NCBI RefSeq assembly: GCF_024437655.1
Contig: NZ_JANBVF010000025.1
Location: 1 to 64,000, forward strand
Reading direction: 5' to 3'
From: Chitinolyticbacter albus
GTDB lineage: Bacteria > Pseudomonadota > Gammaproteobacteria > Burkholderiales > Chitinibacteraceae
Length of the DNA: 64,000 nt
The translations under genes and the position numbers were made by a program. Shown here one piece after another: positions 1,290 to 46,546 of the stretch. Every line of letters starts with the position of its first letter. Within the stretch, counting starts at the first letter, position 1. Below the pieces are notes generated by a model. The model did not search any database, was not told the DNA's origin, and saw nothing but the letters and a program-made list of their open reading frames with translations.

Positions 1290-4200
1290 ATGGTCATGAC
1301 TTACGGGGCGACTCGACCCGATGACACCACTTCATCAAGCAGCAGCTACACGGCCAATATGCAGGAATCCCAGCGGATCATGCGCCAGTACGCGGTTGTT
1401 CCGCTCAACGCGCAGCTGGCCAAGGATGTGCAAGCCAGCATCAATGGCTTTGACAAGTGGATTCGTGATCTAACCGGCGGCAAACTGACCCTGGCCGATC
1501 TGGAAACCGTGCTGTCAGCAGTCCCCGTTGTCGGCAACTTGATCGCGGCGGCAGATGTGATCACCGGCCTGTACGAAATCTCGCAAAAGCAGGATGAAGT
1601 CAGCCTGGTGGATTGGTTTGGCATAGGCATCGATACCATCGGTATCGTCCCCGTGCCTCCTGGCCTGGCGGCTACGCGTATCGCCTTCCGGCCCGTCGTT
1701 GGCGTAGTCAAGCAAGCGCTGGTACGCAATGCGGGTGACATCGGTGAAGCTGTGCTCAGCGTTGTCGTCAATCATCTGATGACCGACCTGAAGCTGGCGG
1801 ATAAGGTCGAAGCCGCTGCCAGTGACTTTGCCAAACAGCTCAAGCCCGCGCTCGATGGCTGCGTGGACTTCCTCAGCAAACTGATCGATCAGTTCGCCGC
1901 CTTTCTCCAGCAACTGGCAAAAGGCGAACTCGGGAAGTACCGCGTTACTAAGTCGACCCGCTATCAAAAGGGACGCAATTTCCGCTCACCGGAGCAGGAA
2001 GAGAAAGGCTTTTTCTCGACGCTACTGAGCTTCCACGCCAGTGCGCAGATGGCAGCGATCAACAGCATCATCAAGCTCGCCTTGCCGGACAGGCTGCGCG
2101 ACGAGTTACTCGGCATCGCGAACTATTTGCTCACGTCGATCAAGTCGCAGATCTCCTCACGGATTCTGGCGCTGGGCAACGCGGCTGCCAAAGGTAGCAT
2201 TGCCTGGCTACTGAAAGAACTGGTCGCCCGGCTGACCAAACGCAAAGGCCAGCATCGTGCCAACGGCGCTGCGACCAGTAATCAAAGCGGTAAAGTGGAG
2301 TATCGCGTACCGAATGCGGCCACAGAAAAGCAGCGCAAGCTGCAGCCGGTACAGCGCAGCCCCAACGCCTGCAAAATCTGCCCTCACTCAAATACATCAT
2401 CGGTGTCTGGCAAGACAAAAAGGTCGATCAACCTCGGCCTCGGCTTCGAATCGTTCAGCCACACCGATTTCATCCTGCCCGGCGTCATCCCCCTGATCTG
2501 GACGCGCACCTACAACTCCCGGCTGGCCAGCCAGGATCAAGGCTCGCTCGGCGCGCGCTGGCTCACGCCCTACCATACCCAATTCGCCATCCACGACGAC
2601 AAGCTGGTTTACACCGATGCGCAAGGGCGGGAACTGGATTACCCATTGTTGGGGGTGGGCGAACACCATATCGACCGCAGCGAAGGGTTGACGATCAGCG
2701 CGCTCGATGAACGTCTGCTCTCGGTGACACGTGGGCACGAACTGCTCGAACTATACGAACGCCATGGCCAACGCTACGCGCTGGCGCTGCTGCGCGATCG
2801 CGCCGGCAACCAGATCGCGCTCGATTACGGCAGCAACGGCCACCTGAGCCGGCTGCGTAATGGCGATGGTCCCTGGGTACACATCGCCACCGATCAGGCC
2901 GGCCGTATCACCCAGCTCAGCCTCAGCGCTGACGGCCCGGAAGCGCCGGCCCGTATCCTCGCCCAGTATCGTTATGACGACCGCGGCGATCTGGTACATG
3001 CCGTCGACGAACATGGGCACGCCCGCGAATACCAGTACAGCCACCATCTGATCACCCGCTACGCTGATCGTACCGGGCGTGGCATGAGTCTGGAATGGAA
3101 TGGCTCCGAGGCCACCTCGCGCGTGATCCGCGAGTACGCCGACGGCGGCAGCAGCGAATTGAAGCTGGAATACGTCGAGCACCTGCGCCTCACCGTGATC
3201 ACCGATGGCCTGGGCGGCGAAACGTATTACTACATGGACGAATCAGGCTACCCCTACCGCACCGTGCATCCGGACGGCAAGGAAGAGTGGCTATTTCGCG
3301 ACGACTACAAAAACCTCACCCTGCATGTGCATCCGGATGGCACTCAGGAATCGTTTGCGTACGACGAGCGCGACAACATGATCGAGCATGTGCGCGCCGA
3401 TGCTTCCATCGTTCGCATGCAATACGACGACAAGGACCAACTGGTCGCCATCACCGATCCGCTGGGTCAGGTGTGGCAGCGCGAATACGATGCCGCCGGC
3501 AATATGGTGCGCGAAACCGACCCGCTCGGGCACAAGACCGAATACGCCTACTCGCCAAAGGGCCAGCCGCTGGCGATCAAGGATGCCAAGGGTGGCAGCA
3601 AGAAGCTGGCCTATACCCCTGCCGGGCAACTGGCCAGCTATACCGATTGCTCCGGCAAGACCAGCAGCTGGGCTTATGATGCCCGCGGCCAGTTGATCGG
3701 CGCCACAGATGCCGCCGGCAACATCACCGCTTACCAATACGGTGCGGATGGCCATCTGGCCCGCATCGTCCAGGCCGATGGCACCGCCATCACGCTGGAG
3801 CATGACGCCGAAGGGCGCCTGCTGGCCCACACCGATGCGCTGGCGCGCACCACCCGCTACAGCTGGGATCGCGCAGGGCGCCTCAGCAGCCGCATGGATG
3901 CCGCCGAGCAGCAACTGAGCTACGCCTACGACCCGCTCGACCGGCTGGTCACGCTGACCAACGAGAATCGCGACAGCTATCGCTTTGTCTACGACGCCGT
4001 CGGCCGCCTGCTGGAAGAAACCGACTTCAGCAATCAGCGCACGGTGTATGGCTACGACGCGGGCAATGGTCGCCTGACCACAGTGGACGAAGGCGGCACG
4101 CGCACCACACTGGCTTTCGATCCCGCTTACCGCTTGATCGGCCGCGATGCCGGCAAGAGCCGCGAGCGCTTCCTGTACGATCCGCTCGGCCGACTGGTGC

Positions 4201-5840
4201 AGGCCAAGAACCGCTACAGCACCGCCCGCTTTTGGTATGACGAAGTCGGCAACCTCGAACGCGAACAACAGCTATACAGCCTGTTTGGCCTGCAGCGCGA
4301 CTACCAGTGGCAGCACGAATATGACGAGCTGGGCAATCGCATCGCCAGCGTACGCCCGGACGGCAATCGCGTCGATTGGCTCACCTACGGCAGCGGCCAT
4401 GTGCACGGCATGCTGTGGAACGGCGAGGAAATCGCCAGCTTCGAGCGCGACGACCTGCACCGCGAAACCGCGCGTACGCTGGGTAATCGGCTCAGCGCCA
4501 CCACCCAATACGATGCCCTTGGCCGAGTGCTGCAGCAGCAACTCACCGGCAGCACCCAGCTGCAACGCCGCTACCGCTACGATCCGGTTGGCCAGCTGCT
4601 CGGCATCAGCGATAGCCGCAGCGGTGAAACCAACTACCGCTACGACCCGGTCGGTCGCCTGCTCGCCGCAGTCAGCCCGCATGGCAGCGAAAGCTTCGCT
4701 TTCGACCCGGCCAGCAACCTGGTCGACAGCATCCGTAGCGACAACACCCTGCCCAGCAACCTGCCCAGGATCACCGGCAACCTGCTGCGCGATTACGCAG
4801 GCACCCACTTTGATTACGACGCGCGTGGCAACCTCATGCGCAAGACCCGCAGCGGTCAGACGCAAACCTTCGAGTGGGATGATTTCAACCGGCTCGTCGC
4901 AGCCAATAGCGAAGCCGGCAAGACCGAATACGCGTACGACACTTTCGGCCGCCGCATCGCCAAGAAAACCGCACAAGGCACCACACTGTTCCTGTGGGAT
5001 GGCGATGTGCTCGCCAGCGAGCACGACGGCAACACCCAGCGCCATTACCTGTTTGAAGCCAACAGCTTCGTACCACTGGCGCAGATCGCACAGCAGGCCG
5101 GAGAGAAGCACAAGGCCTACTACCATGTCGATCACCTCGGCACGCCGCAGCTGTTGACCGACGATGCCGGCCAGATCGCCTGGAGTGCGGAATACAAAGC
5201 CTGGGGTGAGGCGAAAGCCGCAATCAGCGATGCCGCGAAAGCGGCCGGCATCGCCAACCCGATCCGCTTCCAGGGCCAGTATGCGGACGAGGAGACCGGA
5301 CTACACTACAACCACCATCGCTATTACGATCCGGAAATTGGCCGGTTTGTGAGCAAGGATCCGATTGGTTTGCTGGGCGGGTTGAATACACATGCATACG
5401 CGCCCAACCCAGTGGAGTGGGTTGATGTATTTGGGCTTGCCCCCGGCAAGAAACGCCCACAAGGTGGGTGGAACTACAACAACATGCCTGATATTGAAGG
5501 CACGCAAAAGCACCACATAATTCCACAAGCAATTTATAGAGAAAATCACCCTGCCCTGCAAAAGGCTGGCATCGATGTTCACGACACAAAAAACATCATA
5601 TATTTGCCCACCTGCAGAGGAGGGCACCCAACGCGAACAGTACACAATGGCAGTCACCCTGGTTATAGCAACACCATTCGCAACAGGCTGAATGAAATAG
5701 ACGAATACGGCAAAGACCACGAATGGAGCAATGCACAATACAAGGAAGCCGTATCCCAGCTAATGGCACAAGAACGTGCATCACTGAGAAAAGGCACTAC
5801 AATTCTAAATAAAAACTCCGTCCCTCCGTGCCCGAGGTAA
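1290..5840 (+). CDS. rhs: Rhs-repeat T6SS effector with C-terminal AHH-type HNH nuclease
   Basis: A 1516-residue polymorphic toxin. Residues about 1-340 have a hydrophobic, probably membrane-inserting region (two stretches around 66-100 and 108-145) typical of PAAR-less T6SS Rhs proteins of betaproteobacteria. From about residue 385 a DUF6531-type start (NLGLGFESFSHTDF) opens the Rhs/YD-repeat shell, with dozens of YDxxGR/N repeats up to about 1355. The conserved core end reads DPIGLLGG, then PNPVEWVDVFGL around D1379, which corresponds to the aspartyl self-cleavage region of Rhs cages. The variable tip, about residues 1380-1516, has a KHHIIPQ motif (H1408/H1409) and later HNGSHPGY, marking an AHH-family HNH/EndoVII nuclease, so the toxin probably cuts DNA. 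GC content drops sharply at the core/tip junction, showing tip exchange. The neighbours are vgrG upstream and an immunity gene immediately downstream. Confidence 0.92.
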   Translation: MVMTYGATRPDDTTSSSSSYTANMQESQRIMRQYAVVPLNAQLAKDVQASINGFDKWIRDLTGGKLTLADLETVLSAVPVVGNLIAAADVITGLYEISQKQDEVSLVDWFGIGIDTIGIVPVPPGLAATRIAFRPVVGVVKQALVRNAGDIGEAVLSVVVNHLMTDLKLADKVEAAASDFAKQLKPALDGCVDFLSKLIDQFAAFLQQLAKGELGKYRVTKSTRYQKGRNFRSPEQEEKGFFSTLLSFHASAQMAAINSIIKLALPDRLRDELLGIANYLLTSIKSQISSRILALGNAAAKGSIAWLLKELVARLTKRKGQHRANGAATSNQSGKVEYRVPNAATEKQRKLQPVQRSPNACKICPHSNTSSVSGKTKRSINLGLGFESFSHTDFILPGVIPLIWTRTYNSRLASQDQGSLGARWLTPYHTQFAIHDDKLVYTDAQGRELDYPLLGVGEHHIDRSEGLTISALDERLLSVTRGHELLELYERHGQRYALALLRDRAGNQIALDYGSNGHLSRLRNGDGPWVHIATDQAGRITQLSLSADGPEAPARILAQYRYDDRGDLVHAVDEHGHAREYQYSHHLITRYADRTGRGMSLEWNGSEATSRVIREYADGGSSELKLEYVEHLRLTVITDGLGGETYYYMDESGYPYRTVHPDGKEEWLFRDDYKNLTLHVHPDGTQESFAYDERDNMIEHVRADASIVRMQYDDKDQLVAITDPLGQVWQREYDAAGNMVRETDPLGHKTEYAYSPKGQPLAIKDAKGGSKKLAYTPAGQLASYTDCSGKTSSWAYDARGQLIGATDAAGNITAYQYGADGHLARIVQADGTAITLEHDAEGRLLAHTDALARTTRYSWDRAGRLSSRMDAAEQQLSYAYDPLDRLVTLTNENRDSYRFVYDAVGRLLEETDFSNQRTVYGYDAGNGRLTTVDEGGTRTTLAFDPAYRLIGRDAGKSRERFLYDPLGRLVQAKNRYSTARFWYDEVGNLEREQQLYSLFGLQRDYQWQHEYDELGNRIASVRPDGNRVDWLTYGSGHVHGMLWNGEEIASFERDDLHRETARTLGNRLSATTQYDALGRVLQQQLTGSTQLQRRYRYDPVGQLLGISDSRSGETNYRYDPVGRLLAAVSPHGSESFAFDPASNLVDSIRSDNTLPSNLPRITGNLLRDYAGTHFDYDARGNLMRKTRSGQTQTFEWDDFNRLVAANSEAGKTEYAYDTFGRRIAKKTAQGTTLFLWDGDVLASEHDGNTQRHYLFEANSFVPLAQIAQQAGEKHKAYYHVDHLGTPQLLTDDAGQIAWSAEYKAWGEAKAAISDAAKAAGIANPIRFQGQYADEETGLHYNHHRYYDPEIGRFVSKDPIGLLGGLNTHAYAPNPVEWVDVFGLAPGKKRPQGGWNYNNMPDIEGTQKHHIIPQAIYRENHPALQKAGIDVHDTKNIIYLPTCRGGHPTRTVHNGSHPGYSNTIRNRLNEIDEYGKDHEWSNAQYKEAVSQLMAQERASLRKGTTILNKNSVPPCPR

Positions 5841-5842
5841 AT

Positions 5843-6397
5843 ATGTTCTACGTACTTGATGTTAGCGACGACTACCCAGAGGACATCACTGTGATTTACG
5901 ACAGAACACGCTCTCCACGAGTGAAATACTTCTACGAGGGCGATTCTAGACCACTTGCGGGGGAAACAGCTTTTTTTTCCGTCGAATCTGAAGGAGACCC
6001 CTTTGTTTTTGACTACCTCCCTGGGGGTCCTGGGTTATTTTCAATAAAATTCATCGACTGCGTAAAAGCCCTATGCGATGACATTGACATCATAAAATCA
6101 GAAATAAACCACAATGGAAAAATCATAAAAAGTCACTCAGCCATTCTAATAAAGAACTCTATAAGCTGCATTGACATGGAAAAATCAAATACTTACAAAA
6201 TGTTGCCATCCGACCCTACAAGTCCAACAGTGATCTCCAATAGAGTTTTCAAAGACAGTGAACTTGACGGAGTCCACATCGCCAGAAGCTCAGAAGACCC
6301 ATACGGAACCATAGTCATATCAAAAGAATTAATTGTCGCCATAAAAAAAACAAACCCGAAAGGAATTACATACAAGCCGAACGGAAAGTACGAATAG
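5843..6397 (+). CDS. Imm11-like immunity protein candidate for the AHH nuclease tip
   Basis: This AT-rich 184-residue protein starts 2 bp after the rhs stop. The ATG at 5843 is chosen because a GAGG ribosome-binding sequence lies four bases upstream inside the end of rhs. A GTG at 5828 in the same frame is the alternative. No signal peptide or membrane segment is visible. The pattern resembles the Imm11 (DUF1629-like) family: a mid-protein segment with ISCIDMEKS, and a C-terminal stretch with VFKDSELDGVHIARSS followed by IVISKELIVAIKK. Imm11 proteins are known to accompany AHH nucleases in polymorphic toxin loci. Its job, by position, is to neutralise the toxin tip in the producing cell. The family assignment is by eye. 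Confidence 0.75.
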   Translation: MFYVLDVSDDYPEDITVIYDRTRSPRVKYFYEGDSRPLAGETAFFSVESEGDPFVFDYLPGGPGLFSIKFIDCVKALCDDIDIIKSEINHNGKIIKSHSAILIKNSISCIDMEKSNTYKMLPSDPTSPTVISNRVFKDSELDGVHIARSSEDPYGTIVISKELIVAIKKTNPKGITYKPNGKYE

Positions 6398-6437
6398 CGT
6401 CTACTTTTCGGAAAAACCTGCGTCAGAGAAGGGTCAT

Positions 6438-6933
6438 CACAGAGAAGGGTCAGGTCTTGCCTTTTGCGTGTTAATCCACCCTCGTCGAAAAATCAATCCG
6501 CCGATGATTGTTGCAGGCAACCTGGATGGCCTCATGGCTTTAAGTCTCACTCAGGCGAATGCACAGAGAAGGGTCAGGTCTTGCCTTTTGCGTGTTAATC
6601 CACCCTCGTCTAAAAATCAATCCGCCGATGATTGTTGCAGGCAAACTGGATGGCCTCATGGCTTTAAGTCTCACTAAGGCGAATGCACAGAGAAGGGTCA
6701 GGTCTTGCCTTTTGCGTGTTAATCCACCCTCGTCTAAAAATCAATCCGCCGATGATTGTTGCAGGCAAACTGGATGGCCTCATGGCTTTAAGTCTCACTA
6801 AGGCGAATGCACAGAGAAGGGTCAGGTCTTGCCTTTTGCGTGTTAATCCACCCTCGTCTAAAAATCAATCCGCCGATGATTGTTGCAGGCAAACTGGATG
6901 GCCTCATGGCTTTAAGTCTCACTAAGGCGAATG
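6438..6933 (+). repeat. Tandem array of four 124-bp repeat units
   Basis: The unit beginning CACAGAGAAGGGTCAGGTCT starts at 6438, 6562, 6686 and 6810, an exact period of 124 bp. The copies are nearly identical: the first differs from the others at a few bases, while units 2-4 look the same. Each unit begins with GGGTCAGGTCTTGCCTTTTG and ends in AAGGCGAATG. Short open frames cross the array, but they simply repeat the unit and are not genes. The array separates the first immunity gene from the second, displaced Rhs tip. A partial start of the motif (CAGAGAAGGGTCA) also lies just before the array at 6424-6436. Confidence 0.95.
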
Positions 6934-6935
6934 AG

Positions 6936-6957
6936 GCAAAAGGCAAGACCTGACCCC
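6936..6957 (-). repeat. Inverted copy of the repeat-unit head (REP-like motif)
   Basis: Three bases after the last 124-bp unit, GGCAAAAGGCAAGACCTGAC is the reverse complement of the first 20 bases of the unit core (GTCAGGTCTTGCCTTTTGCC-like). The array therefore has the same motif pointing inward at both ends. Two direct copies of TGACCCCGAAGCCACA follow at once. The motif resembles REP sequences mobilised by RAYT (Y1) transposases. This is from memory and not checked, and no transposase is present here. Confidence 0.7.
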
Positions 6958-6977
6958 GAAGCCACATGACCCCGAAG

Positions 6978-7204
6978 CCACACGTCGCCCACCTCAGCGC
7001 GCCGCAGCTATTGACCAACGATATTGGGTAAATCGCTTGGAGTGCAGAATACAAAGCCTAGAGTGAGGCAAGAGATGCACTCAGCGATGCCGCGAAAGCA
7101 GCAGCATTGCCAACCAGATCCGCTTCCAGGGCCAGTATGCGGACGAGGAAACAGGATTACACTACAACCGCCACCGCTATTACGATCCAGAAATTGGCCG
7201 GTTT
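6978..7204 (+). pseudogene. Eroded Rhs core end preceding displaced tip 2
   Basis: The stretch matches the last part of the intact rhs core (HLGTPQLLTDD to [11 protein letters not shown]). It contains two in-frame stops, TAA at 7029 in place of a Gln codon and TAG at 7059 in place of a Trp codon, plus a one-base deletion near 7106. After the deletion the frame runs without interruption into the toxin tip that follows. This is the homology tail typical of displaced Rhs C-termini. Confidence 0.85.
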
Positions 7205-7681
7205 GTGAGCAAGGATCCGATTGGCTTGCTGGGTGGATTGAACACCCACGAATTTGCTCCCAATCCTACCGAATGGGTTGACCCATTTGGGCTGGACCGT
7301 TTCCCTGGGTGGATGCCCACCAAACAAGGCTACCAACGCCAGCACATCATCCCATACTCCTTGAAAGATCACGCCATCTTCGATAAAGCAGGCATGGATA
7401 TAAATGCCGCAGGAAATATGATGTACATGCCTGTATGCGAAGGGATTGACTCAAGCAAGAAAGGTTACCATCGAGGATGGACGGAAGAGCATGCTGCCTA
7501 CAATCGCATGGTCGCAAGCAAGCTAGATGAAATGAACATCAAAGCGACCCGCGAAAGCTGGGATAAAGTTAGGACGCAGAAAGAAGTATCAGAACTTCAA
7601 AGCAAGCTTCGTGCAGATTTGAATTCTGGAAAATTAACTTGCGCCTCTCCCAAGATCCCGAACCGTACCAAGAGAAAATAA
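7205..7681 (+). CDS. Orphan Rhs C-terminal toxin tip, second AHH-type nuclease
   Basis: The frame opens at a GTG inside the Rhs core end. It carries the core motif KDPIGLLGG and the cleavage-region motif [12 protein letters not shown], followed by about 125 variable residues. These include [26 protein letters not shown] and a later [13 protein letters not shown], the layout of AHH/GHH HNH nucleases. Compared with the active tip of the full rhs, the first His of the HH pair is replaced by Gln. There is no secretion or translation signal of its own that I can see, so it is probably a silent cassette that can be recombined onto the intact rhs core. The immunity gene begins directly after its stop codon. 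Confidence 0.7.
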
Positions 7682-8200
7682 ATGTTTTCAATGCAAAGCA
7701 CCAACAAATCCGAACAATGTCTACTCGACATCAAAGACCACAACGGAGACATTCTCAAATATTTCGCTCTTGGGATTGAACTGGAAAAATTTAGAGGCGC
7801 AAAAACACTCAAATTAAGAGCTCAAAGTTTTTTCAACCCCAATAACATAAGAGATTTTGATTTTTTTCAGCCGACACTGCCATTCCCTGTTTTTTCCACA
7901 AAGGCCAAAGAAATCATCGCCCCAAAAACAGATGACATCGAATTCATTAGTTGCACAATAGCGGTTGAAGATACGACCATAGAGGCCTTTGCTGGCAGAA
8001 TTTTAAACAGAAAGCCACTCTTCGAGAGAGTAGACGATTACTCAATAAAACTTCAAGACAAAGTCAAATTGAACGAAGAGGACCTAATTGTTAGAGATAG
8101 TAGCAATGAGCAATTTTACATCGTATCGGAAAAATTTCGAGATCTATGCTTAGCTGAAAACCTAAGAATAAGCTTCATCGAATTTTCGATGTTTAAATAA
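7682..8200 (+). CDS. Imm11-like immunity protein candidate for orphan tip 2
   Basis: This 172-residue AT-rich protein has its ATG immediately after the stop of the toxin tip. It shares the general Imm11 pattern: a central PFPVFSTKAKEII segment, then EFISCTIAVEDTTIEAF, and a C-terminal LFxRVDDYS ... QFYIVSEKFRDLC region. It is distant from the first immunity protein. No membrane segment or signal peptide is visible. It is intact although its toxin is a displaced fragment, which fits selection to keep protection against siblings or relatives still using this tip. Confidence 0.7.
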   Translation: MFSMQSTNKSEQCLLDIKDHNGDILKYFALGIELEKFRGAKTLKLRAQSFFNPNNIRDFDFFQPTLPFPVFSTKAKEIIAPKTDDIEFISCTIAVEDTTIEAFAGRILNRKPLFERVDDYSIKLQDKVKLNEEDLIVRDSSNEQFYIVSEKFRDLCLAENLRISFIEFSMFK

Positions 8201-8329
8201 TTCAATCACCACAAACCCCAGCCGCATAAATCAGGATCGGATCTTGTCTTCGGCAACACAGCTGGACTATTGGCTTCGCGGCTCAGCTGGATTCCAAAGA
8301 AAAAGAACAAAGCAAGTCCTGATCCCTAT

Positions 8330-8499
8330 TTTTATCTAACCCGCAAGACCCCCCAATGGCGTCACCCAGCAATTCAGTTGGGATGGTTGCAATCGACTGA
8401 TCGCTGCGGAAACAGCGATCGGCAAGACCGAATACGCGTACTCCCAGTAGGAAGTCCCCTTGGGGGACGACACCTTCGGGCGCCGCCGATTTCCGCCCT
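8330..8499 (+). pseudogene. Rhs core remnant 2
   Basis: The translation NLTRKTPNGVTQQFSWDG, then GKTEYAY, matches the intact core near residues 1180-1215. An in-frame TAG at 8448 lies within a 27-bp insertion (CAGTAGGAAGTCCCCTTGGG) between the codons for EYAY and DTFGRR. The remnant then runs into a WHH toxin fragment in another frame. The bases between the previous immunity gene and this remnant (8201-8329) show nothing recognisable. Confidence 0.75.
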
Positions 8500-8691
8500 G
8501 CAAACAAAGCGGCCTTTGGCAATCAAAACAGTTACGGCTCCGCCAGCAAAATCATGACGCATGAAAAAGAATACACATGGCATCATTCACAACATGACGG
8601 AAAGTTGCAGTTAATACCGAAAGACATTCACGATGCGGTAAAACACACTGGCGGAGCCGCCGTATGCGGCACACGGAGGCAGTATGGCTGA
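8500..8691 (+). pseudogene. Truncated WHH-family nuclease toxin tip
   Basis: A short frame ends at TGA 8689-8691 and overlaps the start of the following immunity gene by eight bases. From the only ATG (8554) it would encode 45 residues: EYTWHHSQHDGKLQLIP, then KDIHDAVKHTGG. These are the TWHH and HTGG signatures of the WHH subgroup of HNH/EndoVII nucleases in polymorphic toxins. Only the end of such a domain is present, and it is out of frame with the preceding Rhs remnant, so it is presumably inactive. The overlap with a SUKH gene is the normal arrangement for a toxin-immunity pair. Confidence 0.75.
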
Positions 8692-9232
8692 TCTATTTTT
8701 TAAGAAATTAGGCGTTTCCAAGGCCGACCTAGAGGATCAAACACTATCCGGAAAGAAAAGCAAAGGCAAGCTAGATCGCACGCTAGTTGCAATGTATGAA
8801 ACTCCAAATCCAAGCGATGCAGACATTGCAAATCTTGAGGCCATCACGGGCACACTTCCAGCTGACTACAGCGCTTTTTTAAAAAATAACAATGGCGGAA
8901 TTCCAAATCTACCTATACTTAAAACAAAAACCAACGAAAGAGTCATTAACTCATTTCTCGCACTCAATGCCCCAAAGGAGTTTTACGACTCCATCTTTCA
9001 CACACTAAAAATATACGGGCTTAGAATTCCAAAAGATACGCTACCAATTGCCTCAACCGGCTCTGGCGATTTACTTTTACTAAGCGTTGACTCACAAAAA
9101 CCAGGCGAGATTTTTTACTGGGATCACAATTTCGAGTCAGACGAAGACGATGCTCGCGACTACGTTGATAACATCGAACTTGTCGCCCCATCCTTTTCCG
9201 CTCTCCTAACAAAACTGTTACCAGACTTATAA
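8684..9232 (+). CDS. SMI1/KNR4 (SUKH) family immunity protein
   Basis: This 182-residue cytoplasmic protein has the SUKH signatures LPADYSAFLKNNNGGIP near residue 65, INSFLAL near 97, LPIASTGSGDLLLLSV near 125, and a C-terminal GEIFYWDHNFES. SUKH proteins are immunity proteins in polymorphic toxin systems and are often paired with HNH/WHH nucleases, which fits the truncated WHH tip directly upstream. The gene starts inside the toxin frame (ATG at 8684), so translation was coupled. It is AT-rich compared with the chromosome. It is a solitary immunity gene now that its toxin is broken. Confidence 0.85.
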   Translation: MADLFFKKLGVSKADLEDQTLSGKKSKGKLDRTLVAMYETPNPSDADIANLEAITGTLPADYSAFLKNNNGGIPNLPILKTKTNERVINSFLALNAPKEFYDSIFHTLKIYGLRIPKDTLPIASTGSGDLLLLSVDSQKPGEIFYWDHNFESDEDDARDYVDNIELVAPSFSALLTKLLPDL

Positions 9233-9249
9233 CACCAACGCTGCTCCAC

Positions 9250-9513
9250 AACTTAAAACCCGGGGCAAGACGGCCAAGGACCAACCGGGGCAGCGCCCCA
9301 CTGGAAGTCCTGTTGTGGGTCGCTACCTTCGGCCCCCACATCGCCCCCAAAAAAAACCGCCCAAGGCACCACGCTGTTCCTGTGGGATGGCGATGTGCTC
9401 GCCAGCGAGCACGACGGCAAAACCCAGCGCCATTACCTGTTTGAAGCCAACAGCTTCGTGCCCCTGGCGCAGATCGCACAGCAGGCAGAGAGGAACACCA
9501 GGCCTACTACCAT
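9250..9513 (+). pseudogene. Mixed vgrG/Rhs remnant before orphan tip 4
   Basis: Two fragments are joined. Bases about 9256-9292 (GGGGCAAGACGGCCAAGGAC and on) closely match the vgrG segment near bases 76-112 of this window. From about 9330 the Rhs core resumes (TTLFLWDGDVLASEHD, RHYLFEANSFVPLAQIAQQA). Between them is GGAAGTCCTG, a version of the insertion seen in remnants 2 and 5. A two-base loss relative to the intact core, near 9488, shifts the frame before the next orphan open frame begins. Confidence 0.7.
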
Positions 9514-10239
9514 TTGGACCACCTCGGCACGCCACAGCTATTGACCGACGACGCCGGCCAGATTGCCTGGAGCGCGGAATACAAAGCCTGGGGCGAAGCG
9601 AGAGCAGCAATCAGCGATGCGGCCAAGACAGCCGACATTGCCAACCCGATCCGCTTCCAGGGCCAGTATGCGGACGAGGAAACGGGCTTGCACTACAACC
9701 GGCATCGCCACTACGACCCGGAAATTGGTCGGTTTGTGTCGAAGGATCCGATCAAATTGGCGGGTGGACTGAACGTATTTGCCTATGGATCAAACCCTGT
9801 GGAGTGGATTGACCCCTTAGGCCTTGTTGGTTTGCGGGCAACAGATCCAGCAGCAGGGTCGCTCACACCGATACAAACACGATGCTGGTATCTCCGTGAA
9901 GAAGCACGAATCGACAGTCAGCTTTGCCAGTGTGCCAAATCCAAGGACCGTGCACGACTTGCTCATAAATTGCGGAATCAAGCCCGAATCCGCGCTCGGC
10001 TCCTAATAAATGACCCAAAGGGTAGAGTTGGCTTATACATTGGTGGCGAAGCGTCCGCGACTGGAAAGGCTGAGCCGATGTTGAAGTGGAAAGAAGCAGT
10101 GGCTAAGGCTCGCGCAAAAGGAGCCAGTGGCGACGATGTGTACAAAAGCATCGAAAACTCCTCTCAAAGCTCACGAGGATCGATTAACAAGATGCTGGAG
10201 GGCGTTGATTGCGAGAAAGAACTACGAGGGATTCCATGA
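9514..10239 (+). CDS. Orphan Rhs C-terminal fragment with unrecognised toxin tip
   Basis: This open frame of 241 residues starts at a TTG within the Rhs core. Residues 1-105 are clean core sequence (DHLGTPQLLTDDAGQIAWSA through [16 protein letters not shown] and SNPVEWIDPLGL). The remaining 135 residues are variable, rich in Arg/Lys/Ala, with RCWYLREEARI, LCQCAKSKDRARLAHKLRNQ, GLYIGGEASATGKAEP and SSRGSINKMLEGVDCEKEL. I do not recognise a nuclease, deaminase or ADP-ribosyltransferase motif. By position it is a toxin domain. It overlaps the next small gene by ATGA, as toxin-immunity pairs do. A small frameshift inside the tip cannot be excluded. Confidence 0.65.
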   Translation: MDHLGTPQLLTDDAGQIAWSAEYKAWGEARAAISDAAKTADIANPIRFQGQYADEETGLHYNRHRHYDPEIGRFVSKDPIKLAGGLNVFAYGSNPVEWIDPLGLVGLRATDPAAGSLTPIQTRCWYLREEARIDSQLCQCAKSKDRARLAHKLRNQARIRARLLINDPKGRVGLYIGGEASATGKAEPMLKWKEAVAKARAKGASGDDVYKSIENSSQSSRGSINKMLEGVDCEKELRGIP

Positions 10240-41156: not shown

Positions 41157-41357
41157 TGCGTGCACCCTCAGTCAGAAATCGTTTGCATTATGCCTGTATG
41201 GCCGACAAATCGAGCCGGCGCAGCAAGCAAATGGCGTATCGCGGCCGCAGCGGCGACGGATGAGCGCCCCACTGGCCACGGTCAGGAGTGGCTCGTGAAC
41301 CGGGCGAGCTGGCGGCGAAAACCCGCCACCAACACCGCTACCTGCCCGCCCCCCGCC

Positions 41358-41386
41358 TTGGTCGGCCCCGGCAAAACGCCTATACT
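41358..41386 (+). promoter_or_regulatory. Sigma-70-type promoter for the PIG-L deacetylase gene
   Basis: TTGGTC (41358) and TATACT (41381) are separated by 17 bases, a good match to the -35/-10 consensus, about 50 bases before the start codon of the next gene. Confidence 0.55.
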
Positions 41387-41434
41387 CGCCAGCATCTAGC
41401 GGCCTCGAGCCACCTACCCATGGAGCCCCCTTCG

Positions 41435-42292
41435 ATGAGCAATCCTTACCTCGATCTCGTTGCCGCCCACGACAAGTTGCTGCAGACCGCCGGCCCGCTG
41501 TTTTCCTCGCTGGACGGCCTGAACGTGCCGCAGCCGCCGGCCCTGCCTGCCAATGCGCCCGTGGTGATGATCTTCGCGCCGCATCCGGACGACGAATGCA
41601 TCATCGGCGCACTGCCGCTGCGCCTGGGCCGTGAAGCGGGCTTCAAGGTGGTGAACGTGGCGGTGACGCAAGGCTCCAACCTCAAGCGCCAGCCCGAGCG
41701 CTGGACGGAACTGAAGAACGCCTGTGACCTGTTGGGCTGGGAGTTGTGCGAGACCATTCCTGGCGGCCTGATGAGCGTGGGCACCAAGACCCGCGATGCC
41801 GACCCGACCGCCTGGGCCGAGAAAGTGGACGCGATCGCCCGCCTGATCGAGGAATACCAGCCGGCCGTATGCGTATTCCCGCACGACAACGACTATCACT
41901 CGGCCCACATCGGCACCCACTACCTGGTGATCGACGCGCTGGCCAAGGTCGGCCACCGTTGCGTGCTAGGCCTGTCCGAATTCTGGCGCCAGATGGACAC
42001 GCCGAACGCGCTGATCGCCACCGGCAACGCCGACACCGCCGACCTGATCGCGGCGCTCGCCTGCCATGTGGGTGAAGTGGAGCGCAATCCCTACCACCTG
42101 CGCCTGCCGGGCTGGATGGCCGACAACGTCCGTCGTGGCGCCGAAGTCTGTGGCGGCCAAGGCGCCGCAGCACCGACCTTCAGCTTCGGCACCATCTACA
42201 AGGTGGCCCAGTTTGATGGCCGCGCCATAGTCGAGACCGGGCAGAAGTACACGATTGCGGCGGATGGCGATATCAAGGCTGTGCTGGCCTGA
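41435..42292 (+). CDS. PIG-L / LmbE family deacetylase
   Basis: This 285-residue protein has the zinc motif FAPHPDDECIIGALPLRLG near residue 50, then NVAVTQGSNLKRQPER and the distal His in HSAHIGTHYLVIDAL. The family removes N-acetyl groups from N-acetylglucosamine derivatives. In an organism with a chitobiase, a role in chito-oligosaccharide deacetylation is possible, but the substrate is not shown by the sequence. The start is chosen by GGAG ten bases upstream; an in-frame ATG at 41420 is the alternative. Confidence 0.88.
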   Translation: MSNPYLDLVAAHDKLLQTAGPLFSSLDGLNVPQPPALPANAPVVMIFAPHPDDECIIGALPLRLGREAGFKVVNVAVTQGSNLKRQPERWTELKNACDLLGWELCETIPGGLMSVGTKTRDADPTAWAEKVDAIARLIEEYQPAVCVFPHDNDYHSAHIGTHYLVIDALAKVGHRCVLGLSEFWRQMDTPNALIATGNADTADLIAALACHVGEVERNPYHLRLPGWMADNVRRGAEVCGGQGAAAPTFSFGTIYKVAQFDGRAIVETGQKYTIAADGDIKAVLA

Positions 42293-42310: not shown

Positions 42311-42343
42311 AAAACGGCAGCTCGTTGACGGGCTGCCGTTTTT
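42311..42343 (+). terminator. Rho-independent terminator after the PIG-L gene
   Basis: The arms AAAACGGCAGC and GCTGCCGTTTTT form a stem with a loop of about ten bases, 18 bases after the stop codon. Confidence 0.88.
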
Positions 42344-42377
42344 CCTTTCCTACACATCAAGCCAGACAATCAAGAAC

Positions 42378-42929
42378 ATGACCACAGCGAGAAAGATTCG
42401 TCCGCTACTTACGCACCTTTTTGCAGCAACTGTCGGTGCAAGCATTGCATTGTGGTTCATGCCATACCTAGAAGCAAAGCTGAGAACTCCGCCGCCTGAA
42501 ACAGACGTAGATCGTTTGTATCGTTTTATGTTGTCAATTCCGGCCCATGAAATTATGGAAGCGGATAAAGCCTACAAATCAGACATATCTATTGCCGCCA
42601 AAGCCTACGCGCAAGAAAGGGCCATAAAGTGGGCATTTGAAATGAAGCCTGAACCACGGAAAAATGCAAGAAACTATGAAATCGCGGTTCTTCACGCCAA
42701 ACTTGGCATTCTACAGGCCCAGCAAGGCGACCAAGCAATTGCAAACAAGAACTTTGCGACTTCAATGGAGTATTGGCAAAAAATGGGGATTCATTTTCAA
42801 AGCCAAGACCGGCTTCTTACCGCATTCGATGCCTATGGCACTCCCGGGTTCGTGACCGCCGTCAAGAAGCACGCTGTCTTTGACGCTGGTAAGCAACCCC
42901 AGCTGACCAAAGCAACCAAGAGTGAATAA
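42378..42929 (+). CDS. Hypothetical membrane-anchored protein, AT-rich
   Basis: This 183-residue protein has one N-terminal hydrophobic helix (LLTHLFAATVGASIALWFM) and a soluble helical region with TPR-like spacing (IAVLHAKLGILQAQQGDQA, IANKNFATSMEYWQKMG). Base composition is clearly lower in GC than in the housekeeping genes to the left, as in the DUF262-HEPN island to the right, so it may belong to the same foreign segment although it lies outside the inverted repeat. No family is recognised. Confidence 0.65.
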   Translation: MTTARKIRPLLTHLFAATVGASIALWFMPYLEAKLRTPPPETDVDRLYRFMLSIPAHEIMEADKAYKSDISIAAKAYAQERAIKWAFEMKPEPRKNARNYEIAVLHAKLGILQAQQGDQAIANKNFATSMEYWQKMGIHFQSQDRLLTAFDAYGTPGFVTAVKKHAVFDAGKQPQLTKATKSE

Positions 42930-43014
42930 CGTATCTCCTGGAGACTTTCGAGAAAACCGGGACAGACCACGATTTCTCGCATCTTTACAGAAGCATCACA
43001 TGCTCAGCGCCTAC

Positions 43015-43200
43015 GGCGCGGTGTTTGGATGCCGGTTCCGCCCGGCGGACGGGTTCATTTCTTTTGCTTCGCCAAAAGAAACGAACCAAAGAAAAGGCGA
43101 CCCCGCCTTGCGGCCCTCCGGGCTACCCTCAGTCGGTCGCGAGCCAAGGTCTCGCTCCACTCCTTCGGCGCTGGCCAAGGGGAGGAAAACCACGTGCCGG
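43015..43200 (+). repeat. Long inverted repeat, left copy (IR-L)
   Basis: About 186 bases nearly identical to the reverse complement of 45606-45801, with only scattered mismatches. It contains an internal hairpin GGTTCATTTCTTTTG/CAAAAGAAACGAACC around a CTTCGC loop (43052-43087). Open frames crossing it in both copies are repeats of the same sequence and not genes. Together with the right copy it brackets the HEPN/DUF262 pair. Confidence 0.9.
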
Positions 43201-43438
43201 TATGGCTGCCAGAGCGTGAAGTTGCTGAAAGGATGCCCCCATCCACGCCTTTGGGTTCCCTCCAGTAGACAATCGAGTCGGTACCTGCGCAACTCGCTGC
43301 GCTCAAACAGTGCTTGCCGAAACCCCGCCCCGCTTGTTCCTCGCTCGGCGCCTCTAAGGGGGTCGGGTGGCGTGCGAGTATTGCCATTATGGCGAAACGC
43401 AAGCCCCTCACCACGCTCGCGGACCAATTCGGTATCCA
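43201..43438. other. Gene-free stretch between IR-L and the HEPN gene
   Basis: I see no gene here. The stretch is moderately GC-rich, unlike the AT-rich genes that follow, and contains GCTTGTTCCTCGCTCGGCGC and similar words that read like further dispersed repeat sequence. The bases 42930-43014 before IR-L also hold nothing recognisable. Confidence 0.5.
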
Positions 43439-44152
43439 TTATGCAGCATCTGGCAAATTAGTCATGGCGAGACGCGCGTAACCATCGGGGTTAAGAAATG
43501 CATACAATTGGAAATGATTTTCTAGCAACCCAATAAAAAGATCCACCGTGCGTCCAACCGCATCAAGGCGAAGCTCTAGCTCAGCAGCGCGACCACGTGC
43601 TCCGATAGTAGATGGGTTGGCTCGTCCATGCGCCACTTGGTGACGTTTAGCAACAACTTCATCGATATAGTGTCTATCTGGATTTAGCAACAAGGGACTG
43701 CTTGAAACTCCGAGATAACTTGCAACCTGAGCCAACGTCTCCGTGCTAGAGCTCTGCAGATGAATGGCAAATACGGAATTCTCGATTCTACACGCCTCGT
43801 CAGATTGAATAGAATTTACAAAATCAACGCGTCTTTTCCATTTTTTATCCGTTCTTTCATCAGAAAGACTCTTGAATTGAGAATTCATAGCGGTCGGCAG
43901 GAAGTGGAGCGCCAATTCTCTATTTTTAGGCCCAAGATCGGCTACAGCTTGCAGAAAACTCGTCACCGCGTCGTTGAGCGATTGCTCTAGGGCACCGTAC
44001 AAGTGGACATAAAACATACCGCGAATAATCTTTACTTCCTCTGCGTCTTTTGGCGGAGTTTCCTTGGACTCGTATACTTTGATAAACGAAAGCAATGCCC
44101 GTACTTCCCGCAGCCTATCGTCTATCAAGACTCTTGATATCTTCAATGGCAT
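43439..44152 (-). CDS. HEPN domain protein (MAE_28990/MAE_18760-like)
   Basis: This 237-residue protein has N-terminal helices LIDDRLREVRALLSFIKVYE, GMFYVHLYGALEQSLNDAVT, and the C-terminal motif DEVVAKRHQVAHGRANPS, where R-x4-H (RHQVAH) is the HEPN ribonuclease signature. The layout matches MAE_28990/MAE_18760-type HEPN proteins found next to DUF262 genes in defence or toxin-antitoxin islands. The ATG at 44152 comes one base after the DUF262 stop; a GTG at 44170 is the alternative. It is AT-rich. The likely activity is RNA cleavage, held back or triggered by its partner. Confidence 0.8.
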   Translation of the reverse strand: MPLKISRVLIDDRLREVRALLSFIKVYESKETPPKDAEEVKIIRGMFYVHLYGALEQSLNDAVTSFLQAVADLGPKNRELALHFLPTAMNSQFKSLSDERTDKKWKRRVDFVNSIQSDEACRIENSVFAIHLQSSSTETLAQVASYLGVSSSPLLLNPDRHYIDEVVAKRHQVAHGRANPSTIGARGRAAELELRLDAVGRTVDLFIGLLENHFQLYAFLNPDGYARLAMTNLPDAA

Positions 44153-44153
44153 A

Positions 44154-45224
44154 TCAGCGAAGGAAATCACGCACCAATTCGATTCTTCCGGTTACCATTC
44201 GTTTGTTATTCGTCCCTGCGGTAGAAAGAGTTTTTAGCTTTTGATCTTTAATTAATCTTTGAAGTTTACCGCAATCAGGATTAATCCCTTCTTCAATAGC
44301 CAACGCCGTCCCAACCGAAAGTGCTTCGAAAAGATTTGCGGAGGTTATTGTGGCCTTACCTCGCTTGAGCCCTTCTGGAAACGCATCTGCAAGGGCAGAG
44401 AGCGTTTTTTTACATAGATTGATTTGTGCATTTGATAGTGGCCGGCTCGAATTTTCTTTCATGTAATCATTAAGAAACCCCTTGACACTATGCTCAAAAT
44501 TCTTGTAGTTATTTAGATAGGCAAAGTATCTAAGTGCATATTCTTCTGCCGTCCCGTTTTTTGAGTCACTCTCTCGCAATTTAACCACTTTCTTGAAACT
44601 ATCAAGAGCGGATATTTTTCTCAGAGATTCGTTGAATGGCCCTCGGTAAATACAGTTGCGTATTTCTTGGTTCGTAAGCAGAACGCCGCCAGTATTTAGG
44701 CGCTCAAATAAATCAAATCTAACATTAAGGTCACTCTTGTCATTGAGTACCGTCACCCTAATTGGACGAGTCATAAACATCAATTGCATTGATTTGGGTA
44801 ATTCGGCAAATGACAAATCGTTCAACGTACTTAACTTTTCAAGCTCAGCAATCTTGAGCGGTGTTTTTCTGTTTATGGCCGATAAAAGGTTTAACTCTCC
44901 AACAAAATGAGCAATAGTTGACAGTCTTTGGACCCCATCAACGATCTCCCATGTAGCATCTGAATTTGTTGCCATAAACAGACTGGGAACAGGAATTCAT
45001 AGAAAAATGGACTCTATGAGCTCAGATTCGCGCGCCTCATTCCATATAAACTGTCGCTGATATTCTGGAGGAACAAAAATTGCCCCTTCAGAAAACATAT
45101 CGTAGATCTGCCGGATTGTCATGTCATAGCTATCAAATGAAACAAGTCGACGCTCGCGATCCAATTGATTTTGAAGTTCAGAAAAAGTAGTTTCAGTTTT
45201 TTGTGACATATTAAATCCGCTCAT
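44154..45224 (-). pseudogene. DUF262 (GmrS/ParB-like) protein gene interrupted by one in-frame TGA
   Basis: A single frame of 357 codons encodes a whole DUF262 protein except for TGA at 44997-44999. Before it: VPPEYQRQFIWNEARESELI, then ESIFL. After it: IPVPSLFMATNSD, WEIVDGVQRLSTIAHFVG and the helical remainder. The stop replaces the conserved Gly of the IFLGIPVP motif; a single G to T change of GGA would give it. No frameshift is present. DUF262 domains have a ParB-like NTPase/nuclease fold, as in GmrS and BrxU. Either the gene is freshly inactivated, the base is a sequencing error, or translation reads through. A restart at the ATG of 44975 would lack the first 83 residues. Confidence 0.85.
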
Positions 45225-45605
45225 GTCTACGTCAGGTGTTATGTCTCGTACGATACATCTACTTTAGCAGCCCAGCCTTTTGCAGGATTGCTGCCATGTT
45301 ACGTGTTACTCAACAATACAATGTGAACACGAACCGCACTAGTCAGCAAGTGGCTAGGTGTCCAGTACCGGACGATAATATAAGTCCTCGCAGCTGGCGG
45401 CTGCACTGTGCCCGCCATGCTCTTGCCAAGCTGCGCTCCTCCTCCTCCGAGTCGGCCCCATGATCGTCCACTTGCACCAGCGCGCTCGTACCACCCCGGC
45501 CGTCCGCGCCGTGGGGAGCTGGGGCCAGGTCTTGTATTTTGCGCACGCAGGGTCCTTGGTTTGCATTCCTACGGGATTCAAAGTCGCATCATTGCGGCGC
45601 ACTTG
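45225..45605. other. Gene-free stretch upstream of DUF262 with a REP-like motif
   Basis: No gene is recognised. The AT-rich first 80 bases should hold the promoter of the DUF262-HEPN pair. GGGGCCAGGTCTTGTATTTT followed by GCG (45521-45543) is about 19/22 identical to the head of the 124-bp repeat unit at 6 kb, linking the two accessory regions by a shared dispersed motif. Confidence 0.5.
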
Positions 45606-45801
45606 CCGGCGCGTGGTTTTCTTCCCCTTGGCCAGCGCCGAAGGAGTGGAGCGAGACCAGAGGCTCGCGACCGACTGAGGGCAGCCCGGAGGGCCGCAAG
45701 GCGGGGTCGCCTTTTCTTTGGTTCGTTTCTTTTGGCGAAGCAAAAGAAATGAACCCGTCCGCCGGGCGGAACCGGCCCCCAAACACCGCGCCGAAGGCGC
45801 T
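45606..45801 (-). repeat. Long inverted repeat, right copy (IR-R)
   Basis: The reverse complement of 43015-43200 with few differences, including the same internal hairpin (about 45717-45752). It ends about 10 bases before the stop codon of the LytTR regulator gene. The pair could pair as a large stem, recombine to invert the island, or be two copies of a dispersed repeat. Confidence 0.9.
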
Positions 45802-45811
45802 AACCCGCCCC

Positions 45812-46546
45812 TCACATCTGCCTGAACTGCGCCGCAAAACTACGCGACACCGGCAGCACCTCGCTGCGCTGCTTCAGGTGGATGAACTGCCGCCCCAACA
45901 GGTCCCGCTGGATCTTCGCCACCGCCGTGAGGTTCACGATCAGCCCGCGGTGCACCTGCGCGAAACGGTCTGGGGCCAGTTGTGGCAGCAGCTCTTTCAA
46001 GGACGTGCGGATCAGGTGGCGCTCGCTCGCGGTGACCACGTCGGTGTACTTGTTGCTCGCCTCGAAATACACCACCTCGTCGAGCGCGATCAGCCGCGTG
46101 GTGTCTGCGAGGCCCACACTCAGCCAGCTGAGCGTTTGCGTGGCCGGGCGCTGCAGTTGTGCCAGCAGCGCGGCCAGATCGACATCGGGGCGTACGCTCT
46201 GCTGCAGCCGGGCTACGCATAGAGCCAGGCGCGCGTCGTCCACCGGCTTGGTCAGATAATCGACGGCTGCGGCGGAAAACGCAGCGAGCGCGTATTCGTC
46301 GTAGGCGGTGACGAACACGACGCGGGTGCGGCCGGCGGCGGCCGCCACCTGCAGGCCGGTGAGGCCGGGCATGCGGATGTCGAGGAAAGCAAAGTCGGGC
46401 TGATGCTGCGCCAGCGCCGCCACTGCATCGAGCCCGTTGTGCACGGTGGCGACAAGCTGCAGCGTCGGCCACAACGCTTGCAAGCGGCTGGCGAGGTGAC
46501 TGGCCAGCAGCGGCTCGTCGTCGGCGATCAGTGCACTCGGCATCAT
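45812..46546 (-). CDS. LytTR-family response regulator
   Basis: A 244-residue protein with an N-terminal receiver (ALIADDEPLLASHLASRL, phospho-acceptor Asp in FAFLDIRMPGLTG, switch T in VFVTAYDEYAL, Lys in LTKPVD) and a C-terminal LytTR DNA-binding domain (VVYFEASNKYTDVVT, FAQVHRGLIVNLTAVAKI). It overlaps the histidine kinase stop by ATGA. Regulators of this AlgR/LytR type bind direct repeats upstream of their targets. The adjacent ABC-barrel operon is the natural candidate target. Confidence 0.93.
   Translation of the reverse strand: MMPSALIADDEPLLASHLASRLQALWPTLQLVATVHNGLDAVAALAQHQPDFAFLDIRMPGLTGLQVAAAAGRTRVVFVTAYDEYALAAFSAAAVDYLTKPVDDARLALCVARLQQSVRPDVDLAALLAQLQRPATQTLSWLSVGLADTTRLIALDEVVYFEASNKYTDVVTASERHLIRTSLKELLPQLAPDRFAQVHRGLIVNLTAVAKIQRDLLGRQFIHLKQRSEVLPVSRSFAAQFRQM

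Follow-up and report, generated by a model that had tools for sequence, protein, structure and literature searches.

The closest described counterparts of the locus studied here are the minimal mobile elements of Neisseria (MMEs; Saunders and Snyder 2002; Snyder 2007, as cited in PMC3082526), which occupy a fixed site between conserved genes and carry lineage-specific whole-gene cassettes devoid of mobility genes. In TIME-COMPs (PMC13367494, PMC4133298), cargo that lacks a transposase lies between two copies of a short inverted-repeat element. As to gene content, ParB(DUF262)-HEPN operons were described in 2013 from comparative genomics, and MAE_28990 is reported to neighbor a DNA cytosine methyltransferase (Anantharaman et al. 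2013, PMC3710099). PD-T4-2, composed of a DUF262 protein and a PF18735 HEPN protein, is among the listed anti-phage systems (Vassallo et al. 2022, as reviewed in PMC10952713). Taken alone, the DUF262-HEPN gene pair that we analyzed would be unremarkable: a damaged sibling of a known defense type. The main interest is in where it sits, namely in one of several repeat-framed slots with complete cargo turnover, a fresh variant of the minimal-mobile-element idea.

The pair lies in a 64,000-nucleotide stretch of Chitinolyticbacter albus DNA, the whole of which is referred to as the window. The site is laid out as follows.

41288-42292, forward strand: left flanking gene, conserved, a putative PIG-L-type deacetylase by our own reading of the sequence
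42378-42929, forward strand: 183-aa open reading frame of no known family, outside the arms, its membership in the unit uncertain
43006-43200, forward strand: left arm, R1-type repeat, outer end at 43006
43201-43385, forward strand: inner extension of the left arm, including an R2-type inner sequence (about 43254-43370) common to the sister species at the same site
43439-44170, reverse strand: HEPN gene, 243 aa, GTG start, alternative ATG at about 44152, reading frame intact
44154-45224, reverse strand: DUF262 (GmrSD_N, PF03235) gene, 357 codons, nucleotide-binding motif VDGVQR
44997-44999, reverse strand: in-frame TGA at DUF262 codon 76, splitting the gene
45606-45801, reverse strand: right arm, R1-type repeat, outer end at 45801, about 10 bp past the stop of the response-regulator gene
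45812-46546, reverse strand: right flanking gene, a LytTR response regulator, 88% amino acid identity with the sister species

The two arms pair in two segments, 43006-43145 with 45662-45801 (140 nt, 97% identity) and 43148-43200 with 45606-45658 (53 nt, 96% identity), which together make one inverted arm pair of about 195 bp that is 95% identical. Both the inverted repeats of about 190 bp on either side of the pair and the AT-richness of the two genes, as claimed in the original prediction, were thus borne out, the GC content of the cargo region dropping to 0.41 versus approximately 0.65 in its surroundings. The framed unit is 2.8 kb long, and no tRNA that could have served as a target lies near it. 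The core of the left flanking gene (41432-42292) shares 91% amino acid identity with the sister species. The 183-aa reading frame sits in an ~660-bp stretch (42343-43005) that reaches from this gene to the left arm and is absent from the sister species. Elsewhere in the window, a second inverted repeat (47609-47639/47846-47876, 31-bp arms that are 97% complementary and 206 bp apart) is unrelated to the arms studied here. At positions 1290-10239, a large open reading frame precedes an AT-rich string of small genes, which encode an Imm11-like protein, an AHH nuclease, a SUKH immunity protein and an orphan RHS tip; the region resembles a polymorphic-toxin locus whose toxin-immunity cassettes have been displaced.

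Both arms belong to a dispersed, hairpin-rich repeat of about 550 bp, which has 22 matched places in the present genome. An ~550-bp copy consists of two unlike halves (R1 and R2), with inverted outer ends starting AGCGCC-TNC-GGCGC. Four repeat pairs, all with their outer ends pointing outward, frame 1.4-2.6 kb of cargo each. We call them slots 1 to 4, slot 1 being the window site.

Window site: DUF262-HEPN
C34:101455-104384: PIN_8 protein (670 aa)
C34:125185-128232: GGDEF protein
C34:307029-308842: 394-aa membrane protein

Four further pairs are ~550-600-bp copies without cargo. Random placement of the copies would be expected to give 0.07 outward pairs framing 1-10 kb versus the four observed, and at least four such pairs arose in none of 20,000 simulations with randomly placed copies. 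The original prediction had held that a repeat occurring many times genome-wide in random places would reduce its presence at both ends to coincidence; the repeat is indeed numerous, but its outward pairing is not random. Slot 2 has a third arm, oriented as the second, around a small gene for a protein of 137-155 aa that is kept in both species, and forms a double slot (L021 3456-7142; L075 2189-12243). No recombinase, transposase or integrase gene was found among the slot cargos that we read.

Next, we compared the slots with those of the sister species (G001, one contig), the only other species of the genus compared. All four sites are present there, with the same flanking genes and the same repeat arms, but with other cargo. 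At the window site, a type VI retron (RT_VI, 1.5e-76; HTH_VI, 4.6e-35; L073 1339-4070) takes the place of DUF262-HEPN in a frame of this type. Rhs proteins ending in a WHH nuclease replace the PIN_8 protein, a TonB_C plus S41 peptidase-like protein replaces the membrane protein, and PDC-M15A/B, a candidate defense pair, replaces the GGDEF protein. When cargo was compared with cargo between the two genomes, no similarity was found at any of the four slots. PADLOC models matched 3 of the 8 slot occupants versus 4 of 42 window genes (p = 0.07), so that an enrichment of the slots in defense genes is only suggestive.

The alignments between the two species cover flanks and arms with few or no breaks and stop where the cargo begins. 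Flanking sequences are 87% and 82% identical at slot 1, where the left arm is shared up to about 43365; at slot 2 the values are 90% for the flank and 85% and 80% for the arms, and at slot 4 they are 82% and 92% for the flanks and 86% and 89% for the arms. At slot 3, flank and arm are contiguous at 91% on both sides. Homology ends inside or just past the arms at all eight junctions. In five of the eight arms, identity drops sharply from a high level at the outer end to a low one at the inner end; the remaining three stay similar for approximately 120-180 bp further in. For example, the left arm of slot 3 falls from 98% identity in its outer 50 bp to 35% at 125-195 bp, its right arm from 98% to 48% past 195 bp, and at slot 4 identity falls from 88-91% to 35-37%. 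Moreover, the left arm of slot 3 is R2-type in the present genome and R1-type in the sister species, and the right arm of slot 1 also differs in type between the two; the inner part of these arms therefore changed along with the cargo. At slot 1, both species have a left arm that is an R1/R2 chimera. We also noted that the window site of the sister species is messier on its right side, where it has an extra truncated arm. Collectively, the frame was kept and the content replaced at four of four slots, with breakpoints in or just past the arms.

The check proposed alongside the original prediction, a search for empty sites in relatives, was carried out. In one genome of the genus Chitiniphilus (G022), the genes that flank the window site are adjacent, separated by a 669-bp gap with neither repeat nor cargo, and eight other genomes have no framed cargo next to the slot 2 flanking gene. 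Hence, the slots appear to be particular to the genus of the present genome. A 20-kb gap between the window flanking genes in two further genomes (G003 and G013) was set aside, as it holds other genes and no repeat.

On balance, we favor, with some confidence, the reading that these are ancestral repeat-framed cassette slots, a variant of the Neisseria MMEs, whose cargo can be replaced by exchange within the arms. The walls of the window slot, two inverted copies of the repeat, would already have been at this chromosomal site when the two species of the genus diverged. The content would be accessory and replaceable, as with DUF262-HEPN here and the type VI retron in the sister species. DNA entering the cell with a different cassette between copies of this repeat would recombine with the resident arms, which would act as portable regions of homology, and the cargo would be replaced without a recombinase in the cassette. 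Cargo exchange thus probably proceeds, as we infer it, through homologous recombination within the arms, in which case chimeric arms and switches between R1 and R2 type are to be expected. Three observations stand against arm-mediated exchange: the search turned up no repeat-framed donor copy of the DUF262-HEPN cassette, in other genera nearly all copies of the repeat are solitary or ~550-bp ones lacking cargo, and the 660-bp insertion at slot 1 lies outside the left arm.

An unlikely alternative is a classical MME, in which DNA that has been taken up swaps the cargo by homologous recombination with the conserved flanking genes and the repeats are passive intergenic elements, for instance terminators. 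Conserved flanks, different whole-gene cargo and the lack of mobility genes fit the published definition (PMC3082526), and here four sites in two species hold different whole-gene cassettes flanked by matching conserved genes. The identities of flanks and arms are also similar, and with two species compared, flank-gene recombination that carries the arms along passively would leave nearly the same picture. However, such recombination accounts poorly for homology that ends inside or just past the arms at eight junctions and for the change of arm type that goes along with the cargo at two of these, and it gives no reason why cargo should lie between outward-facing repeat pairs at four sites. The slots studied here differ from Neisseria MMEs in that inverted copies of one dispersed, hairpin-rich repeat, common to all slots, frame the cassettes, in that the breakpoints lie in or just past these arms, and in that the replacement is known between two species rather than between strains.

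It is doubtful, though conceivable, that the hairpin-rich arms are a dedicated exchange device. The inverted copies would then make standard sockets, each able to take any cassette framed by the same repeat, in many cases with defense or toxin genes, across species, through homologous recombination or a hypothetical hairpin-recognizing recombinase.

In a cross-genus consensus fold of the repeat, compensatory double changes occur in 14 of 41 pairs, most of them in a hairpin near arm positions 50-90. As the fold was predicted from the same 12 sequences that were scored, these changes support a selected structure in the arm hairpins and do not prove it. The repeat is present in 39 of the 61 genomes searched, nearly all of them Chitinibacteraceae, and a short core pattern of it matches Chitiniphilus, Chitinilyticum, Deefgea, Crenobacter, Rhodoferax lacus and some MAGs. 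Its copies in other genera are mostly solitary or of the ~550-bp form without cargo. A 61-base exact pattern had no match in named genomes, the search of plasmids with the repeat gave no match, one core pattern was not found in viral contigs, and Rfam returned only a chance miRNA match. Three unlinked copies (L026 4692-5305, L073 1339-1578 and L075 12005-12243) have an ~50-bp insertion in common, which suggests sequence exchange between dispersed copies of the repeat.

A further alternative, a composite of two miniature inverted-repeat elements resembling TIME-COMPs and mobilized as a whole by a transposase acting in trans, is improbable. The existence of the repeat as ~550-bp copies with inverted ends would suit it, and composites bounded by such elements are known to move cargo (PMC13367494). 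Against it, the same four sites are used in both species, no target duplication was seen at the outer ends of the elements listed, and no transposase lies inside the unit. The sole transposase family searched, Y1/RAYT (PF01797), which is the obvious candidate where repeats end in hairpins, had no match in the present genome (G000), the sister species or several repeat-rich relatives (G002, G003, G013 and G021), and a REP/RAYT origin of the repeat was rejected on the same ground. TIME-COMPs further differ from the slots, which lack target duplications and a known trans-acting transposase, occupy fixed sites and have heavily hairpin-structured arms. The earlier suggestion that the repeats mobilized the module therefore holds for a role in movement, since the cargo differs between sister species while the arms stay. 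It does not hold for a self-jumping unit, given the lack of target duplication and of a mobility gene and the use of the same sites in both species.

Inversion of the module, also proposed at the outset, found no support. The inverted arms, 95% identical over about 195 bp, are long enough for RecA-dependent inversion, but a second orientation was not seen, the unit has no invertase, and the slots differ between species by content rather than orientation, making a switch that flips the cargo very improbable. Lastly, chance flanking of a horizontally acquired pair by a common repeat, to which 22 places in the genome might lend some color, has next to no likelihood given the excess of outward pairs over expectation, and is refuted by the sister species, in which all four pairs recur at these sites around different cargo.

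Returning to the favored reading, of replaceable cassettes in ancestral slots, we investigated the cargo of the window slot. DUF262 comes first in the two-gene operon, and its stop codon abuts the possible ATG of the HEPN gene near 44152-44154, in agreement with the predicted 1-bp junction. PF03235 matches both halves of the DUF262 protein (E = 4e-14 and 4e-5). Apart from the TGA, the DUF262 frame is open and resembles its relatives on either side of the stop; intact genes are present in relatives, and the pair on E. coli plasmid NZ_CP137740.1 is one intact relative. Owing to this premature stop, the system is probably dead or impaired in the present genome, barring a sequencing error. The HEPN protein matches PF18735 (E = 4e-15) and PF18737 (E = 9e-11) and has the RxxxxH motif in the form RHQVAH, with R176, A180, H181 and G182 invariant in 13 sequences. 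Its structure model is all-helical (mean pLDDT 75.5); a Foldseek search with the model gave no significant match, the HEPN toxins 7ae8 and 7bxo appearing among the weak ones. With a helical HEPN domain and the RxxxxH motif, the features by which RNases of this superfamily are recognized, the protein is predicted from its sequence to be an RNase effector. By analogy with PD-T4-2 and other DUF262 systems, DUF262 would sense infection and then trigger the HEPN RNase activity, halting growth of infected cells. The HEPN reading frame has stayed intact although its partner is no longer full-length, which suggests that DUF262 acts as an activator and not as an antitoxin. HEPN homologs are absent from the 60 relatives searched, hence we regard this cargo as a local acquisition; a search for the HEPN protein on plasmids or phages was without match.

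We then compared the pair with its known relatives. The window DUF262 protein scores best to NsnA in PADLOC (8e-47), and its larger half matches PD-T4-2_A at 7.5e-39, as compared with 9e-158 (PD-T4-2_A) and 9e-59 (PD-T4-2_B) at a genuine PD-T4-2 member (L102). Like PD-T4-2, the pair is a two-gene operon of DUF262 and a PF18735 HEPN protein. It differs in that its HEPN protein has 243 aa versus about 165 and matches no PADLOC PD-T4-2_B model even at a limit of E = 10, and in that its DUF262 protein scores higher to NsnA and is broken. Membership in PD-T4-2 was rejected on the failure of the HEPN protein to match these models, and membership in Nsn because the partner is a HEPN protein (PF18735/PF18737) and not the AAA ATPase NsnB; a genuine NsnA-NsnB pair was found at L107. 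DUF262 matches occurred in 30 of 398 genomes of the phylum sampled, the window's own genome included. At the 29 loci outside the window, an RxxxxH protein lies directly downstream in 16 and an ATPase-like protein in 8. Model scores distinguish three groups: genuine PD-T4-2 (L102), genuine Nsn (L107), and a third group that takes in the window pair as well as pairs from Klebsiella and E. coli plasmids. In this third group, DUF262 scores are middling to both models and the HEPN protein is longer and matched by no PD-T4-2_B model. As in the MAE_28990/RiboL-PSP operons, the HEPN gene shares an operon with a ParB/DUF262 gene, and two plasmid-borne relatives adjoin a DNA cytosine methyltransferase; unlike those operons, the window pair has no neighboring methyltransferase and is repeat-framed. 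The pair is thus a sibling of PD-T4-2, of a type foreseen in 2013. Its earlier assignment to defense is consistent with the literature (PMC3710099, PMC10952713). To call it poorly characterized is apt for the HEPN lineage, which falls outside the PD-T4-2_B models, but overstated for a class of operon known since 2013 and with a listed anti-phage member.

The slots bear on how small defense systems without mobility genes move between chromosomes, and the four orthologous sites, with frame kept and content replaced, are a directly testable case. They also suggest a search rule, namely to seek unrecognized defense genes between inverted copies of a lineage-specific repeat. By their slot position, the unassigned 670-aa PIN_8 protein and the 394-aa membrane protein are candidates for such a role in defense.
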